Below, one piece after another: positions 2,553 through 11,175 of a stretch of 34,311 nt of DNA. Both the position numbers and the translations under genes were made by a program. The notes below the pieces were generated by a model. It was not told the origin of the DNA and made no database searches. It saw only the letters and a list, made by a program, of their open reading frames with translations. The stretch is from a virus. Numbering within the stretch: position 1 is the first letter of the stretch; every line of letters begins with the position of its first letter. The stretch spans positions 1 through 34,311 of IMG/VR virus record IMGVR_UViG_3300042453_005615. One strand, 5' to 3'.

Positions 2553-5500
2553 ATGGCACAGCTCAAATTTGGAAGTGCGGGTGTAACAGCAAGAGAAATA
2601 GATCTGACCGGTCCTGTTGAAACAGGGCCGACAGGCATACCAGCGGGTGTTATTGGAACATCAGTCAAAGGACCAGCGTTCGTCCCCTTGACTTACGGTA
2701 CGTTGAAAGACTTTTTTGCTAAGTTCGGCGAAAGTGATTCAAAAAAGTTTGGTCCTCTCGCAGTTTCAGAGTGGCTTTCTCGTGCCACATCTGTGACATA
2801 CTTGAGAGTCTTAGGTGTAGGCGATGGTAAACAGCGTATAAAAGCTGGTGCTACTGCTGGTGAGGTTGTAAGCGCTGGGTTCGTGGTCGGTGAAGAACAA
2901 CCACAGACTGACGGGACAATCGGACAAAATCCTTTTGCAAACTTTGGTGGCCCACTGGGAAGAACATACTTCCTAAGCTGCTTCATGTCAGAATCAGTGG
3001 GTTCAACATTCTTTAGCGATGCAGGACTGCAGGGTCCAAATCGTGTCAACATGCCCAGCATGTTTGCTACTGCTTCAGTTCCAATTGTTAGAGGCATTTT
3101 GATGGCTCCATCAGGAGTTATACTCAGGCTCTCATCTGCAGTTGGATCAGTTGCAGGGGCTTCTGCAGCCCCTGCTTCTACTCTTGTGGCAGATGAATCA
3201 AATTCTAAAGGCACAACAGTCGGCTCACTTGTACTCTCTTCTAACAACGCTTCAAAGCAAGAATTCACATTGCTTCTCAACGGTCATAAGGGAAATGATG
3301 CGTCTTATCCCAACGTGTTGACGGCATCATTTGATGTGAATGCTGCAAACTTCATTACAAAAGTCTTCAACACTGATCCATACAAGCTTCAGCGCGCAGG
3401 ACATTATTTAGCAGCACATTGGGATATCCACCCATCGTTAGCAGTGCTGACTGGCACAGGTGTTGTTCCTGTGGGCAGCGGTTCAACTGCGCCTACTACA
3501 AGTTTGCATAAGATTGGTACTGAAAGAATTGTTTTCTTGTCAACTTCTTCGCTTGCTCGCAACGTGGGCAGTGCAACTGTTCCTAACTATGAATCTTTTA
3601 GAGACAGATTTTCAAGCGCTCATACACCTTGGGTTATTTCTCAAAAATTCGGCGGAAAGCCCGCTAATTTGTTTAGGTTCCACTCATTGGATTCAGGTGC
3701 TGGTGTTTCAAATAAAGTTAAGATTTCGATATCAAACATCACACCATCTTCAGCAGCAAATTACAAATATGGTTCTTTCAACGTTTCATTCAGGCGACTG
3801 GATGATAATGATGTTGAACCAAAAGTTCTAGAATCATTCAACGGTGTCAATCTTGACCCTTCATCAGATCGCTACATCGCTAAAGTCATCGGTGATGTCA
3901 ACGCATACTATGACTTCGATCGAGACGATGCAAGCCAAAAGCTTGTGATTGAAGGAAATTATTCCCTCAGGTCTCGCTATGTTAGAGTTGAAGTTTCGAA
4001 TGAGGTCATTGACCTCGCAGTCGATCCTTCAGCTCTTCCAATGGGCTTCCGCGGCATTGCGCATCTTGTAACATCAGGATCTGCGCCTCTAGCAAGCCTA
4101 CCTGCTGCTGGATCTGTTGAGACTGGTCTTGTGGATCCTTCTTTCATAAAGAACGCTGTTGAACCGCCGTTACCCTTTAGAAAGAATATCACAGATGGAT
4201 CAGGCGTTCAAGCTCAAGAAAATCTTCGTTATCACTGGGGCGCGAAGTTTGAGCATGTTGTCGACTTGAACGACCAAAACAGCAATATTACACCTGATAA
4301 ATCTTTCGACAGCTTCACAAGCTACTTCCCAGATTTTTCAACAGTAAACGCTAATTTTGTTGTTGGAGATAACACAGGTGCCGCAGACACAGCAGCTCTT
4401 GGAATTGTTGATGCCGACAGATTCTGCAACAACTTATTCACACTTGAGCATGTGCAGATTGTGACGGGGTCGAATGGCACTGTCGATCAACCAGATTCAT
4501 GGAAGTATGCTACGTACGTCCGAAATGGTGCAATCCCGACGAACGATGCGACAAAGACAAGAGCTGTAAATGTTAGTGACTTGACATTCTCGCAGAATAG
4601 AAAGTTCCTAAAATTCTCGATGGTGATGCAAGGCGGATTTGATGGTGTCAATATCTTTGATGAAGATGAGAGCCAGATCAACAATGCAGCCGTCACAGCT
4701 GACATGGGCGACGTCAACAGGGGCAGAGAAAAAGGACCGAACGTTTCAGCGTACCTCAAGGCTCTTGAAGTAATGAAGAATACAACCAACGTTGATATTC
4801 AGCTCCTCGCCATTCCAGGAATCAGAACACCTGTCATCACTGACGCCGCGATCGCTGCTACTGAAGAGCGCTTCGACGCACTTTATATTATGGATATTGA
4901 GCAGGTCGACAAAGATGGCAATTTGATCAACATCACAGGAAATGTGAAGCCTTCAGTCGGTGAGACGATACTGCAACACAAAGCGCGTGATCTTAATACA
5001 TCATTCGCTGCTGCGTACTTCCCAGACGTCTTGATGAAGGATCCATCAAGGGCATCAAACACTGTTGTGGTGCCGCCCTCTGTCGTAGTCCTCGGAGCGC
5101 TTGCATTAAATGATTCTCTTGGTTATCCATGGTTTGCACCAGCTGGCCAGACTCGCGGTGTGCTGCCAACGACACTTGAGACGAGCATCCAGCTAAAGGA
5201 TGAGGATCTAGATTCGCTATATGATGAAGACATCAATCCACTGTTTGCTCAGATTACACAAGCGCGAGGAGGTCTTAACCCGAAGGGTGGCGTAGTTGTT
5301 TGGGGACAGAAGACACTTTATCAAGCTGCTTCTGCGCTTGATAGAATCAACGTCCGTCGTCTTCTCATCGATGTTCGCCGTCAGGTCCGTGAGATCGCCC
5401 AGACGATCATCTTCGAGCCCAACCGCGAAGCAACCCTTGCACGGTTCTCTGCTGCTGTCACACCACGTCTACAGAGAATCCAAGCACTTGCAGGTCTCGA

Positions 5501-5654
5501 GAGGTTCAGGGTCATCATCGACTCTTCGACGACAACACAGGCCGACGTCGAGAACAACACGGTCCGTGGGAAGATCTTCCTACAGCCCACAAAGACGATC
5601 GAGTTCGTGTCACTCGACTTCGTCGTCGCCAACAACCTGCAGTCTGTTTCCTGA
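2553..5654 (+). CDS. Contractile tail sheath protein, copy 2
   Basis: Full-length sheath subunit of 1033 aa, much longer than T4 gp18 (659 aa). The N-terminus has the typical sheath opening, with SAGVTAREID at about residues 8-17 and GPAFVPLT at about 40-47. GGFDG lies near residue 693, and the C-terminal polymerisation domain with GQKTL and SALDRINVRRLL begins near residue 918. The ATG at 2553 follows an AGGAG ribosome binding site at 2540-2544. It is clearly paralogous along its whole length to the copies on either side and closest to copy 3. The last 300 bp are markedly richer in G+C and C-ending codons than the rest. A terminator-like hairpin follows 24 bp after the stop. The sheath assignment is firm. 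The role of having several sheath types is unknown. Confidence 0.95.
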   Translation: MAQLKFGSAGVTAREIDLTGPVETGPTGIPAGVIGTSVKGPAFVPLTYGTLKDFFAKFGESDSKKFGPLAVSEWLSRATSVTYLRVLGVGDGKQRIKAGATAGEVVSAGFVVGEEQPQTDGTIGQNPFANFGGPLGRTYFLSCFMSESVGSTFFSDAGLQGPNRVNMPSMFATASVPIVRGILMAPSGVILRLSSAVGSVAGASAAPASTLVADESNSKGTTVGSLVLSSNNASKQEFTLLLNGHKGNDASYPNVLTASFDVNAANFITKVFNTDPYKLQRAGHYLAAHWDIHPSLAVLTGTGVVPVGSGSTAPTTSLHKIGTERIVFLSTSSLARNVGSATVPNYESFRDRFSSAHTPWVISQKFGGKPANLFRFHSLDSGAGVSNKVKISISNITPSSAANYKYGSFNVSFRRLDDNDVEPKVLESFNGVNLDPSSDRYIAKVIGDVNAYYDFDRDDASQKLVIEGNYSLRSRYVRVEVSNEVIDLAVDPSALPMGFRGIAHLVTSGSAPLASLPAAGSVETGLVDPSFIKNAVEPPLPFRKNITDGSGVQAQENLRYHWGAKFEHVVDLNDQNSNITPDKSFDSFTSYFPDFSTVNANFVVGDNTGAADTAALGIVDADRFCNNLFTLEHVQIVTGSNGTVDQPDSWKYATYVRNGAIPTNDATKTRAVNVSDLTFSQNRKFLKFSMVMQGGFDGVNIFDEDESQINNAAVTADMGDVNRGREKGPNVSAYLKALEVMKNTTNVDIQLLAIPGIRTPVITDAAIAATEERFDALYIMDIEQVDKDGNLINITGNVKPSVGETILQHKARDLNTSFAAAYFPDVLMKDPSRASNTVVVPPSVVVLGALALNDSLGYPWFAPAGQTRGVLPTTLETSIQLKDEDLDSLYDEDINPLFAQITQARGGLNPKGGVVVWGQKTLYQAASALDRINVRRLLIDVRRQVREIAQTIIFEPNREATLARFSAAVTPRLQRIQALAGLERFRVIIDSSTTTQADVENNTVRGKIFLQPTKTIEFVSLDFVVANNLQSVS

Positions 5655-5857: not shown

Positions 5858-8800
5858 ATGGGACAATATAAGTTTAATAGCGCCGGAATATCAGCACAAG
5901 AAGTCGGCACTTTGGGTCCGACGCCCACTGAGCCTGTCGGCAGGTCTGCTTGTATAATTGGAACGGCTTTTGGTGGTCCTGCTTTTGTTCCATTGACACT
6001 TGGATCTTTAGAAAATTTTGTAAACATATATGGAAACGTCGATGGAACATTATTCGGACCGCTTGCTGTAAACGAATGGATGAGAAACGCAGCTTCAGTC
6101 ACATACTTTCGTGTTCTTGGAGTAGGCGACGGCAAAAAGAAAGACTCTGATGGATTTGTAAATGCTGCAGGTTTCACAGTTGGAGAAGAGCAGCCCTACA
6201 TTTCATCGAGCGGCATGATATCTTCAAACAGTTTTGCAAATTCGGGCGGACCTCTTGGAAGAACATATTTCTTGGGGTGCTTTATGTCTGAATCTGCGGG
6301 AGAAACATATTTCAGCTCAGCGGGTCTACAGGGCACAGGCAGCCAAAATGGTATTGTCTCAGCGGCTGTGCCTGTTGTTCGTGGTATTTTGATGGCTCCA
6401 TCAGGCGTCATACTTCGATTATCCTCATCAGGCGGCGGTTTGGATTCATCAGCTCCGCCTGCAAATTACGTTGCACAAGAATCTACAGCCTACGGTACGA
6501 CGCTTGGATCTGTGACGCTATTCCAAAATCTCAATGTGAAGCAAGAATTCGTGCTTTTGCTCAATGGATATAACTCTGGATCGACGCCTGTTACAGCGAT
6601 CACAGCTTCACTTGATATGCAGGCTCCCAACTATTTTGCGAATGTTCTAAATACGACAGCGTCGTTGATTCAAGAGCAGGGTCATTATCTCTATGCACAC
6701 TGGGACATTCATCCAACAGTCGCAATTCTAACAGGCACAGGGGTTGTAGCTGCAGGTGCTGACATGCCCACAGATTCTAATAGAATCAACGGCACTGAGC
6801 GCTCAATTTTTCTTCTGACATCTTCTCTTGCAAGAAATACTGGAAGCGTGACAGTTCCAAATTATGAAGCTTTTAGAGATAGATTTTCATATGCAAAGAC
6901 GCCGTGGTTTATTTCACAAAACTTCCATGGTAGTCCAATCAATCTATTTAGACTGCACTCTTTAGATGCGGGATCAAGGTTTGCGCAAAATTATAAAGTT
7001 ACAATAAAAAACATAGCTCCACAAGAAGAAACGTCAACGTATCGATACGGTTCTTTTGATGTGCTAATTAGAAACATTGACGATCCAGACAGTGAGCTGT
7101 CGATACCATTAGAATCACACATAAATGTTAATCTTGATCCATCTTCAGATCGCTACATTTCAAAAGTTATAGGTGATCTAAACGTGTACTACGATTTTGA
7201 TCGACCTGAAAATGAGCAACGGATTGTCTATGAAGGAAATTACGCTTTAAATTCAAGATTCGTGCGTGTTGAAGTTGCACAAGAAGTAGAAAATAAGTCG
7301 ATACCTCAGGAAGCACTTCCTGTTGGGTTTAGAGGAATTTATCATTTAGTGACGAGCGGATCGGCACCTCTTGCGCCTCTTAACAACCCAGATTCTTCTG
7401 CTCTTTTGAATGCAGATTATTTGCGTAATACGGTGCAACCGCCTCTTCCAATGAGGATGAACAATAAAAGCGGCAATCCTGTGAAGACGCCGTCGACTAA
7501 CAATTCCTGGGGTGTTGTGTTCAACCATGCAACACAAGACAGCAATAACCTAAAGGGGCTCAATAGATCTATCGAGTTTTACACGAAGCATTTCCCAACA
7601 AACTGCACGACAAACGTCAACGTGCTTGTAGGGGACAACACAGGCCAACTCGACACGGCGCAAAATGGAATTTTGGACGCTGACAGGTTTTGTAATAATT
7701 TGTTTACTCTTGAAAATATCCGTATTGTCACAGGATCGAACGGCACAGTAGATCCCTCCTATGATTGGAATTTAGCTGAATACGTGAGACACGGCAAAAT
7801 ACCAACTGACGACAATTCAAAAACGCGTCGTTTGCAGGTGGCTGATTTCTTGTCAGCTTCTAATAACGGATACTTGCGCTTTGACACAATATTTCAAGGC
7901 GGGTTCGACGGCATCAACATTTTTGACAACGATGAAGCCAACCTTACAAATGCTGCAGCAGTTGCTGATATGTTCGATCCCGTGCGCGGAAGGCTTCAGG
8001 GCCCTACTGTCGCTACATACCGAAAAGCAATTGAAATAATCAGCAGCCCAACTGCCGCTGACTTCAGCGTCTTGGCAATCCCAGGCCTTAGAGAACCTGC
8101 CGTCACTGAAGCAGCGATCGACGCTGCCGAGCAAAGGTTCGATACAATTTATATAATGGATCTTGAAGACGCTGAGACAGCTCGTGAAGCAGTAGATCTT
8201 GTTAAGCTTCGAGGATTAAACTCATCTTTCGTCGCGGCGTATTTCCCAGATGTCGTGATGAAACCGTTCGAGAATTCTTCATTAGAAATCATCGCACCAC
8301 CTTCAGTTGTCGTCCTCGGGGCTATCTCGCTCAATGACAGCATAGGCCAGCCTTGGTTTGCTCCTGCAGGTGTAACTCGAGGTGTGCTTTCAACTACACT
8401 AAAAACTTCTATACCAATAGCTGAATCTGAGATCAACCTATTATACAGCAACGACATCAACCCTCTATACGCAACAACTAACATAAACGGAGCTGATAAT
8501 TTTGCTTCTGTAAGCGGCGTAGTTGTTTGGGGGCAAAAAACGATGCAGAGATCTGAATCTGCGCTCGATCGTGTCAACGTCAGACGACTCATGATTGAAG
8601 CCCGACGCGCTGTCAAAGACATCGCTCTGCAGCTCCTTTTTGAACCAAGCAGACCAGAAATAATAAGTCGTTTCAACGCAACAGTGTCTGAGCGACTTGG
8701 TCAAATACAATCCCTCGGCGGCATGGACGCTTACAAAGTATTTGTTGATTCTTCAACCACGACGACCACAGACGTCGAAAACAACACCATCAGGGGCAAG

Positions 8801-8875
8801 ATCTATATCAAACCCAAGAAGACGAACGAGTTCGTGTCTCTCGAGTTTTTAGTATCAAACACAGGTGAAGTTTGA
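5858..8875 (+). CDS. Contractile tail sheath protein, copy 3
   Basis: Third sheath subunit, 1005 aa. It aligns with copy 2 over its whole length: the N-terminal SAGISAQEV and GPAFVPLT blocks, the RDRFSYAKTPWFISQ segment, GGFDG near residue 680, and the C-terminal block with GQKTM and SALDRVNVRRLM near residue 892. The ATG at 5858 fits the paralogue alignment, but the upstream AAAAAGAAGCTTAG offers only a weak ribosome binding site. Unlike copies 1 and 2, this gene has a promoter-like sequence upstream and terminator-like hairpins on both sides, so it may be expressed separately. It could make mixed sheaths with copy 2 or replace it under some conditions. That is inference. Confidence 0.95.
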   Translation: MGQYKFNSAGISAQEVGTLGPTPTEPVGRSACIIGTAFGGPAFVPLTLGSLENFVNIYGNVDGTLFGPLAVNEWMRNAASVTYFRVLGVGDGKKKDSDGFVNAAGFTVGEEQPYISSSGMISSNSFANSGGPLGRTYFLGCFMSESAGETYFSSAGLQGTGSQNGIVSAAVPVVRGILMAPSGVILRLSSSGGGLDSSAPPANYVAQESTAYGTTLGSVTLFQNLNVKQEFVLLLNGYNSGSTPVTAITASLDMQAPNYFANVLNTTASLIQEQGHYLYAHWDIHPTVAILTGTGVVAAGADMPTDSNRINGTERSIFLLTSSLARNTGSVTVPNYEAFRDRFSYAKTPWFISQNFHGSPINLFRLHSLDAGSRFAQNYKVTIKNIAPQEETSTYRYGSFDVLIRNIDDPDSELSIPLESHINVNLDPSSDRYISKVIGDLNVYYDFDRPENEQRIVYEGNYALNSRFVRVEVAQEVENKSIPQEALPVGFRGIYHLVTSGSAPLAPLNNPDSSALLNADYLRNTVQPPLPMRMNNKSGNPVKTPSTNNSWGVVFNHATQDSNNLKGLNRSIEFYTKHFPTNCTTNVNVLVGDNTGQLDTAQNGILDADRFCNNLFTLENIRIVTGSNGTVDPSYDWNLAEYVRHGKIPTDDNSKTRRLQVADFLSASNNGYLRFDTIFQGGFDGINIFDNDEANLTNAAAVADMFDPVRGRLQGPTVATYRKAIEIISSPTAADFSVLAIPGLREPAVTEAAIDAAEQRFDTIYIMDLEDAETAREAVDLVKLRGLNSSFVAAYFPDVVMKPFENSSLEIIAPPSVVVLGAISLNDSIGQPWFAPAGVTRGVLSTTLKTSIPIAESEINLLYSNDINPLYATTNINGADNFASVSGVVVWGQKTMQRSESALDRVNVRRLMIEARRAVKDIALQLLFEPSRPEIISRFNATVSERLGQIQSLGGMDAYKVFVDSSTTTTTDVENNTIRGKIYIKPKKTNEFVSLEFLVSNTGEV

Positions 8876-8940: not shown

Positions 8941-9429
8941 ATGGCTGAAACGCTTGACGTCACGTCAATGATTCCAAATAAATTTGAACCGAAGCGCAAA
9001 AACCGCTGGGTTCTCATGATCGAAGGCATCGATGCTTACATCTTAAAAACTGCAGCACGTCCACAGATTACGACAGAAGAAGTCGCAATCCCCTTCATCA
9101 ATTCAACCCGCTATTTAGCAGGCAAAACGACATTCGGTCAGATGAACGTGACTCTACACGATCCAATCGCACCCTCGGGCGCTCAACAGGTCATGGAATG
9201 GATTCGCCTCCACTTCGAATCAGTCTCTGGCCGCTCTGGCTACGCAGACTTCTACAAACGAGACATTCAGCTGAAGATGCTTGACCCAGTTGGTACAGTC
9301 GTCGAATTATGGGATATCAAGGGTGCTTTTATTACTGACGCAAATTTCAACGACTTGACATACGAAGATGGTGGTCCAACAGAAATCACGCTTACACTGC
9401 GCTTTGATAACTGTGTGTTGCAGTACTGA
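8941..9429 (+). CDS. Tail tube protein (T4 gp19-like)
   Basis: Subunit of the inner tail tube around which the sheath contracts and through which DNA passes. At 162 aa it matches the T4 gp19 length (163 aa). It begins with a short polar lead and then the typical pattern FEPKRKNRWVLMIEG. A middle segment of the type RYLAGKTTFGQMNVTLHDPI and the closing beta segment EITLTLRFDNCVLQY also match this family. The ATG at 8941 follows AGGAG (8927-8931) with 9-nt spacing. The position right after the sheath genes is the standard order in contractile tails. It is likely a late, highly expressed gene. The 65 bp upstream contain the T run of the preceding terminator and no clear promoter. Confidence 0.93.
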   Translation: MAETLDVTSMIPNKFEPKRKNRWVLMIEGIDAYILKTAARPQITTEEVAIPFINSTRYLAGKTTFGQMNVTLHDPIAPSGAQQVMEWIRLHFESVSGRSGYADFYKRDIQLKMLDPVGTVVELWDIKGAFITDANFNDLTYEDGGPTEITLTLRFDNCVLQY

Positions 9430-9451: not shown

Positions 9452-9480
9452 TTATACGTTTTAGAATTGTGAAGTATACT
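9452..9480 (+). promoter_or_regulatory. Possible promoter for the homing endonuclease gene
   Basis: TATACT at 9475-9480 is a good -10 match. The TTATAC 17 bp further upstream (9452-9457) is a poor -35, so this may instead be a phage-specific element. Transcription from here would begin near 9486-9488, almost at the ATG and inside the left arm of the hairpin at 9481-9506. A related GAAGTATA...TATGG stretch precedes the ribonucleotide reductase gene at 34008. Confidence 0.35.
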
Positions 9481-9506
9481 ATGGTATATGGGAAACCGTA
9501 TACCAT
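9481..9506 (+). promoter_or_regulatory. Hairpin enclosing the homing endonuclease start codon
   Basis: ATGGTATATGG (9481-9491) pairs with CCGTATACCAT (9496-9506) over 11 bp with a single T-G wobble, closed by a GAAA (GNRA) tetraloop at 9492-9495. The start codon ATG 9488-9490 lies in the left arm, so a transcript arriving from the tail genes would hide it. T4 homing endonuclease genes such as I-TevI are known to use start- or SD-sequestering hairpins with a promoter placed so that only late transcripts escape the fold. Here the same use is inferred. Confidence 0.6.
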
Positions 9507-11143
9507 GCCCACAGTGTGAATATCAGTTTGGACAAGAAGTAAGGCTTTTAGAGCATCTTAGTTCTGTTCATAGCATTGTAGATTACGAACAGTTGTATTG
9601 CGATGTGTTTTTGGAAGGCGTAAAGCCGAGGTGTGCATGCTCAAAAGAGTGTGCACATTTCCTCATTTGGCGTGGGTGGAAAAAAGGATATACATCAAAA
9701 TATGCCCGTGGGCACAATGCTCGAATTGACAGTGTTTATTTGAATAAAGAGCGCCAAGCTGAAATGGCCTCAAAGCGAGTTGCTGGTTTTGCAGAAGGAA
9801 AATATCATGTGTGGAATGCCGGCATGTCAAAAGAGACGTCTGCAAAAGTCAAAGACAGCAGTGAGAAAATATCTAAAACCATAAAGCAAAAAAAACTCGA
9901 CGGTGTATACGTCAATTGGCGCTCTGTAGATCCTGAAAAAGCTCAAGCTGCTGTTAGAAAAATGTCAGCAAAGAAGCAAGAGCTTTATTCTACAGGAATT
10001 CTTAGTCCTTGGAATAAAGGGTTGACGAAGCATGATGATCCTCGAGTTGCTTCAATTTCGAAGGGAATAAAAGAAAATTATCAAGAAAGTGATGATGCTT
10101 CAGCGAAAAGGTTAACGCCTGAACAGTTTCTTGAGAGAGTTTTAAGCGTAGGCAAGTTTGATTTGTTGTCAAACCCCAGCGACTATAAGAACAAGTATCA
10201 AAAATTTAGCTTTAGATGCCATTCATGCAATGCGACACAATTAAAAAGCCTAGTGATGCTTGAAACATCACCTGTTTGTTTTTTCTGCAAACCTAAAGAA
10301 TCAAAATCGCAGCTTCAAATTTTTGAATTTGTTCGTTCACTTGAACCTACAGCGCTTTTATCAAATCGCGATGTGATTGCGCCAAAAGAGCTCGACATCT
10401 GGGTGCCATCAAAGAATTTTGCAATTGAATATAACGGACTATACTGGCATTCAAGCGCTGTGCTATCTGACAATCTGTATCATCAAAAGAAGCATGAAGA
10501 GTGCTGGAAAAGAAGTATTAGTCTCTTATCAATCTATGAGGACGAATGGCGAGATAAGCGAGCGATTGTAGAAGGCATGATTAGACACCGCATCAAACAA
10601 CCTATAGAGCGATGGTCTGCGAGAAATCTTCAGCTGGTTGAGCTTGCTAAAGATAGAGCTGCAAATTTTTTTGACAACAATCATCTAGAGGGTTTTGCGC
10701 GCTCTAGTGTTACTTTTGGATTAGAGCATAAGTCTACAGGTGAGCTTCTCGCAGCGATGTCGTTACGCAAGCCTTTTCATAGAAAATACTCTGATGCTCT
10801 TGAGGTGGCTCGCTGTTGCGTGCTTGCAGGTCATTCGGTCAGAGGCTGGCTTGGAAAGCTTACAACTAAAGCGATAGAATATGCTCACGGCAAAGCAGCG
10901 AGGCTTATCACATATGTGGATGGTCGAGTTGGCCGCGGTAATGGGTATGAACAGTCAGGATGGACCCGCGCTGCTTCAGAAAATATTCCGCGATTTTGGT
11001 GGACTGATTTCCACAATCGATTTAATCGATTTAAATATCGTGCAAATAGAGCACAAGGCATCACACAAGAAGAAGCTGCACAGTGTGCAGGTGTCGTGGC
11101 CATCTATGGTTGTTCTAATTCACTTTATGAAATTTTACTATGA
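9488..11143 (+). CDS. Free-standing Vsr-like (EDxHD-type) homing endonuclease
   Basis: Site-specific DNA endonuclease that promotes its own spread between phage genomes (551 aa). From the N-terminus: a C2H2 zinc finger (Cys7, Cys10, His23, His28), two NUMOD3-like DNA-binding segments (around WNAGMSKET, 109-117, and SPWNKGLTKHDDPRV, 173-187), and a zinc ribbon (Cys244, Cys247, Cys264, Cys267). Next is a Vsr-fold nuclease core with ELDIWVP (Asp303), AIEYNGLYWHS (Glu314, His321), YHQKK and YEDEW (Glu351-Asp352). A C-terminal Mom/GNAT-like domain (about 380-551) ends in IYGCSNSLYEI. The residues resemble the I-Bth0305I group. Both flanking genes are complete, so it is intergenic and not in an intron. 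No good ribosome binding site is seen. The start must be near 9488 because the zinc finger begins at residue 7. Confidence 0.88.
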   Translation: MGNRIPCPQCEYQFGQEVRLLEHLSSVHSIVDYEQLYCDVFLEGVKPRCACSKECAHFLIWRGWKKGYTSKYARGHNARIDSVYLNKERQAEMASKRVAGFAEGKYHVWNAGMSKETSAKVKDSSEKISKTIKQKKLDGVYVNWRSVDPEKAQAAVRKMSAKKQELYSTGILSPWNKGLTKHDDPRVASISKGIKENYQESDDASAKRLTPEQFLERVLSVGKFDLLSNPSDYKNKYQKFSFRCHSCNATQLKSLVMLETSPVCFFCKPKESKSQLQIFEFVRSLEPTALLSNRDVIAPKELDIWVPSKNFAIEYNGLYWHSSAVLSDNLYHQKKHEECWKRSISLLSIYEDEWRDKRAIVEGMIRHRIKQPIERWSARNLQLVELAKDRAANFFDNNHLEGFARSSVTFGLEHKSTGELLAAMSLRKPFHRKYSDALEVARCCVLAGHSVRGWLGKLTTKAIEYAHGKAARLITYVDGRVGRGNGYEQSGWTRAASENIPRFWWTDFHNRFNRFKYRANRAQGITQEEAAQCAGVVAIYGCSNSLYEILL

Positions 11144-11147
11144 ATTG

Positions 11148-11175
11148 TTTACACAATCAGAACGAAATTTATATT
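11148..11175 (+). promoter_or_regulatory. Possible promoter for the gp26/gp51-like gene
   Basis: TTTACA at 11148-11153 and TATATT at 11170-11175 are separated by 16 bp, directly after the endonuclease stop. A 13-nt palindrome, TGATACAGTATCA (11179-11191), lies between this and the AGGAG ribosome binding site (11191-11195), and could be an operator. The T4 early -35 box also contains TTTAC. The match is suggestive only. Confidence 0.35.

Follow-up and report, generated by a model that had tools for sequence, protein, structure and literature searches.

The control of free-standing homing endonuclease genes has been described in a few T4-type phages. For I-TevI, SegB and Aeh1 MobE, the passages of the published accounts that deal with these genes describe a common logic, in which RNA that reads through into the nuclease gene is locked while the transcript of the gene itself stays free (PMC2988022, PMC3014915). 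In I-TevI-type genes the read-through RNA is kept from being translated by a hairpin, within which a promoter gives rise to an RNA without the left arm, an arrangement resembling the one described here. There, however, the hairpin hides a Shine-Dalgarno (SD) sequence ~8 nt before the AUG, and the setting is one of T4 middle or late promoters and group I introns, whereas the locus studied here has no SD, a paired start codon, a sigma-70-like -10 box and no intron that we could find. T4 segB and mobE of Aeromonas phage Aeh1, two free-standing nuclease genes, share the hairpin-and-promoter arrangement, but they are SD-based and concern other nuclease families and sites; the passages devoted to them mention neither a leaderless start-codon lock nor an overlap with a tail tube terminator (PMC2988022). 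In T4 mobE and segF, the same source places a terminator at the 5' end of the nuclease gene, an overlap also present in many of the relatives presented below, yet this terminator lies inside the coding region with no nested promoter described, and differs from our locus, where no terminator was seen (PMC2988022).

A further point of comparison is Pseudomonas phage PA5oct, in which a Hef-like nuclease gene (~28% identical) adjoins the tail tube gene co-directionally. It differs in lying between the sheath and tube genes, and in being preceded by an ordinary terminator and then a separate TTGACT-17-TATACT promoter with an SD-like AAGGA, so that hairpin and start codon do not overlap. Our literature search, which covered few subscription papers and is weak evidence of absence, returned no homing endonuclease gene with a start-codon lock and a leaderless mRNA, and no nuclease hairpin that overlaps a tail tube terminator.

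The stretch of phage DNA analyzed here (34,311 nt, hereafter the window) carries a nuclease gene flanked by the genes for a tail tube protein and a gp26-like baseplate protein, both of which are intact. The features of the locus are as follows, all promoters being consensus matches and all transcript starts predictions:

8941 to 9429, plus strand: tail tube gene (gp19-like; phrog_4542 tail tube, E 2.6e-30; PF06841 match below the cut-off)
9453 to 9458, plus strand: weak -35-like TATACG, separated by 16 nt from the -10 box, with a score near zero and positional support only
9475 to 9480, plus strand: -10 box TATACT, starting at -13 from the start codon
9481 to 9491, plus strand: left arm of the hairpin, ATGGTATATGG, holding the start codon (9488 to 9490)
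9492 to 9495, plus strand: GAAA tetraloop of the start-codon hairpin
9496 to 9506, plus strand: right arm of the hairpin, CCGTATACCAT, inside nuclease codons 3 to 7
9486 to 9488, plus strand: predicted transcription start of a leaderless or nearly leaderless mRNA, from the -10 spacing
9488 to 11143, plus strand: intact Hef-type (EDxHD) homing endonuclease gene, 551 aa (phrog_3339, E 1.2e-59; conserved residues kept)
9488 to 9919, plus strand: N-terminal zinc finger and adjoining module (residues 1-144), common to HNH nucleases found at the same site
11148 to 11175, plus strand: sigma-70-like promoter TTTACA-16-TATATT of the next, gp26-like gene (10 of 12 consensus positions)

The catalytic region of the nuclease (residues 309-361) matched PDB 3r3p, listed as 'mobile intron protein' (E 4.6e-5), which we take to be the EDxHD enzyme I-Bth0305I. 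Since the window gave no Rfam match to a group I or group II intron at gathering score and the flanking genes are intact, an intron setting was rejected. The promoter of the gp26-like gene lies directly 3' of the nuclease gene, and similar elements precede gp26 in nuclease-free relatives. Two further observations concern this gene neighborhood. Upstream of the tail tube gene lie three consecutive tail sheath genes (8-2500, 2553-5654 and 5858-8875). The nuclease itself has a C-terminal part (residues ~372-525, at 10601-11062) for which a GNAT-like fold was predicted with high confidence; the best PDB match of this model was Mom of phage Mu, a DNA-modification enzyme (8bv8, E 3.3e-5), and the nuclease of one relative (L029) matched a Mom-like PHROG (E 3.1e-7). 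Such a fusion of a homing endonuclease with a Mom-like domain, as suggested by the predicted fold, would merit a separate study.

The hairpin at 9481-9506 consists of an 11-bp stem with a single U.G pair and the GAAA loop (MFE -14.9 kcal/mol), and here the original prediction, including the ATG at 9488 and the TATACT box at 9475-9480, proved exact in its coordinates. None of 200 shuffles reached this stability, and the window holds six non-overlapping 26-mers as stable as this one, as compared to 0-2 in a first-order Markov window. Past the in-frame stop at 9470, position 9488 is the only usable start, because the first zinc-finger cysteine is residue 7, and the interval between that stop and 9488 contains no in-frame ATG, GTG or TTG. 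The start region of the window nuclease gene, when checked, had no SD. Folding of the read-through RNA gave a predicted probability of 0.001 that the AUG is unpaired, in line with the proposal that such RNA forms the hairpin, leaving the start region paired. An alternative pairing, of 9453-9462 with 9492-9502, was rejected as the main structure (-3.0 versus -15.7 kcal/mol for the local hairpin). Translational coupling from the tail tube gene, across a 58-nt gap and the hairpin, seems unlikely. Within the nuclease gene, ~145 nt past the start codon, there is a second strong hairpin, TGTGCATGCTCAAAAGAGTGTGCACA (9632-9657, -15.4 kcal/mol).

Ahead of the hairpin, the TATACT box is separated from the ATG by 7 nt. 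An extended TG is absent, and so is a good -35 element, the upstream TATACG standing where TATACA or TGTACA occurs in relatives. The T4 late promoter (TATAAATA) and the T4 middle promoter were not found, the -10 boxes of this register being sigma-70-like. With sigma-70 initiation ~7 nt past the -10 box, the RNA would begin at the start codon, and the predicted mRNA is thus leaderless. The claim that such an RNA could not form the hairpin went too far. The full hairpin would be lost, but RNAs starting at 9486, 9487 or 9488 are still predicted to fold a 6-, 5- or 4-bp GAAA hairpin (-5.6, -4.4 and -3.2 kcal/mol, respectively), with a probability of 0.004-0.14 that the AUG is unpaired. By these models, the lock in the window's promoter-born RNA is weakened by ~9-12 kcal/mol, and not removed.

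Relatives of the locus were examined next to this single case. A viral-contig search with the window nuclease alone returned no relative, and the relatives came via alignment searches. Eighty related tail tube loci were compared for the sequence that follows the tube stop codon; nuclease-free loci exist among them, and these genomes mostly have an intrinsic terminator after the tube stop, where many other genomes carry a nuclease gene. Alignment searches with three nuclease groups yielded 83 non-redundant nuclease genes that lie immediately 3' of the tube gene and on its strand, of which 81 were retained for folding analysis after a further filter. These loci share ancestry, and the counts given below are therefore not counts of independent events. 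The catalytic domains of the tube-adjacent nucleases are of three kinds: Hef/EDxHD, TnsA-like (PF08722, E 3.7e-14) and HNH (weak PHROG matches). The N-terminal module of the HNH nucleases is common to the TnsA-like nucleases as well, and in hhalign comparisons it matched with E 2.4e-12 between Hef and HNH and E 2.7e-35 between TnsA-like and HNH. Many related phages also have a second Hef-like nuclease gene (L118-L145; L numbers denote loci), on the strand opposite the tail tube and without a start hairpin.

For the 81 same-strand genes, the median folding z-score of the region from -50 to +20 was -4.43, and 84% of the genes fell below -2. The corresponding control medians were close to zero, i.e., +0.48 for the opposite-strand Hef genes, -0.21 for gp26, +0.58 for the tail tube gene and -0.08 for the other window genes, indicating that the start structure tracks the same-strand position downstream of the tail genes and not the nuclease family or the phage.

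In the relatives, the structure is a 12-bp helix whose left arm spans -24 to -13 and whose right arm, at -2 to +9, covers the start codon and codons 2-4. Across 13 gap-free Hef loci this helix was 94.9% paired, and at 7 of its 12 pairs both partners had changed; helices slid along the alignment were 28-46% paired, and none of 500 shuffles reached the covariation score. When HNH loci were included (22 loci), pairing was 97.6%, both-side changes were found at 9 of the 12 pairs, and again 0 of 500 shuffles scored as high. The start codon takes part in this covariation, GTG starts pairing with C and ATG starts with U. Cells that are not Watson-Crick were overwhelmingly G.U rather than C.A (43 versus 1 in the 22 loci, 27 versus 2 in the 13), which argues for pairing of the coding-strand RNA and against a DNA palindrome. 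As far as sequence comparison can establish it, pairing at the start regions of the relatives is selected, and selected at the level of RNA. This covarying helix backs the I-TevI-like logic that had been proposed for the window, with the start codon in the stem. For the relatives, the AUG is predicted to be unpaired with a median probability of 0.006 when the RNA is a read-through product, and of 0.66 when it begins at the start codon.

The promoter was assessed in the 23 loci whose start codon lies in the stem, the window included, any hexamer that agrees with TATAAT at four or more of its six positions being counted as a -10 box. In 21 of them the hexamer starts at -14 to -12 from the start codon, as the window's own box does (shuffles: mean 2.9, maximum 8), and 18 have an extended TG (shuffles: 0.18, maximum 2). 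Thus, the placement of the -10 box for a leaderless mRNA, claimed for the window, recurs across these loci, the starts themselves being predicted. A broader count, in which the best promoter removes 50% or more of the left arm in 73 of 82, is weak for terminator-type loci (see below), where random placement often passes, and for this reason our conclusion rests on the register test.

The window departs from its relatives. Its helix (-7 to +3 with +8 to +18, the A of ATG being 0) is in a different register from theirs (-24 to -13 with -2 to +9), and a search with a degenerate pattern for the window stem matched only an unrelated phage locus, so that the search turned up no sibling of the exact stem. 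The evidence of compensation hence comes from the relatives' helix and not from the window's own, and it is in the former, compensated at 9 of 12 pairs, that pairing is conserved across related copies. One might consequently see the window stem as accidental or decayed, the copy having lost its family's regulation, a reading to which the residual stem, predicted to hinder even the promoter-born mRNA, also lends itself. We consider it unlikely. Random 34-kb windows hold just 0-2 stems of such stability, the position of this one coincides precisely with the start codon in a kind of gene that usually carries such a hairpin, and the open reading frame and its conserved residues are intact. The window is, more probably, an unusual member of the predicted hairpin-locked nuclease group.

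In many relatives with other nuclease types, the hairpin is terminator-like and, rather than containing the start codon, holds the SD or abuts that codon. The TnsA-like class has a hairpin of the form TATAAT-TACCTCCGTGGC...GCTGCGGAGGTTTTTATG, with an SD (GGAGG) in its right arm and a T-tract that runs into the ATG; unlike the window, this class is nearer to the hidden SD of I-TevI-type genes. Its TATAAT stands at the foot of the left arm, and the promoter-born RNA should therefore be without the anti-SD. In an AT-rich group (L187-L239) a hairpin with a T-tract abuts the nuclease ATG, as it does in L255 and L266-L277. Many loci of this group have TTGACT-16/17-TATATT or similar, with a predicted start in the loop or the right arm, and several of these promoters can also be read as TTG-N19/20-TAnnTTTG. 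The latter resembles the Bacteroidota promoter form. Remnants of nuclease genes were seen too: L311, L315 and L316 keep the hairpin and just ten codons of a lost nuclease gene, and in these three and L321 the hairpin, the promoter box and the first 10-17 HNH-type codons survive, the rest being lost or broken.

Such loci raise the question of whether the hairpin acts solely as an intrinsic terminator for tail tube transcription, any regulation of the nuclease being incidental. Nuclease-free relatives do have a terminator at the same place, that of L003 sharing 94% identity over 32 nt with a nuclease-gene hairpin (that of L183), and 30 nuclease loci have a hairpin and T-tract just before the ATG. 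In the window, however, the stem is not terminator-like, with no T in the 9 nt after it and no plus-strand terminator called there, and most Hef loci likewise lack a T-tract after the stem. Furthermore, the conserved helix covers the start codon, which itself covaries, and the roles of terminator and lock can coexist. We therefore hold it quite unlikely that termination is the whole of the hairpin's function. That the palindrome is a DNA site, either part of the nuclease target or an operator for autorepression like the one that I-TevI binds over its own late promoter (PMC2988022), is suggested by its overlap with the window promoter, but is very unlikely given that arm sequences vary with pairing kept, that coding-strand mismatches are G.U and not C.A, and that similar hairpins serve as terminators in nuclease-free genomes.

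Taken together, these results favor a model in which the hairpin locks the nuclease start in read-through RNA and the gene's own promoter gives a translatable leaderless mRNA. RNA reading through from the tail genes, the source in the window being the tail tube gene (8941-9429), would fold with its start codon paired, such that little nuclease would be made. A promoter with its -10 box ending ~6-8 nt upstream of that codon would supply a separate leaderless mRNA that, lacking most or all of the left arm, would be translatable, although in the window this bypass is predicted to be partial, with 4-6 bp remaining. The hairpin, the -10 register, the relatives' covariation and the missing SD are features of the sequence, from which we infer the transcript start, the repression of read-through RNA and translation without a leader; on this basis the model is probably correct.

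Judged by sequence, nucleases with three different catalytic domains share the hairpin-promoter design, and in many of them the hairpin is a terminator too. There is about an even chance that large phages commonly carry, behind their tail tube genes, a three-in-one hairpin combining a terminator for the tail genes, a lock on the start codon or SD and a nested promoter whose RNA does neither; it would serve nucleases whose catalytic domains are of three unrelated kinds, possibly across different host phyla, the Hef and HNH branches being those with the start-codon lock and leaderless mRNA. The design predicts leaderless phage mRNAs, and start codons that pair with upstream non-coding RNA. If true, a selfish gene could occupy a place downstream of a late structural gene and yet not be expressed from the RNA of that gene, leaving the 3' end of the host gene unspoiled, and, should the predictions hold, the merger of terminator, translational lock and promoter would be widespread and perhaps convergent.
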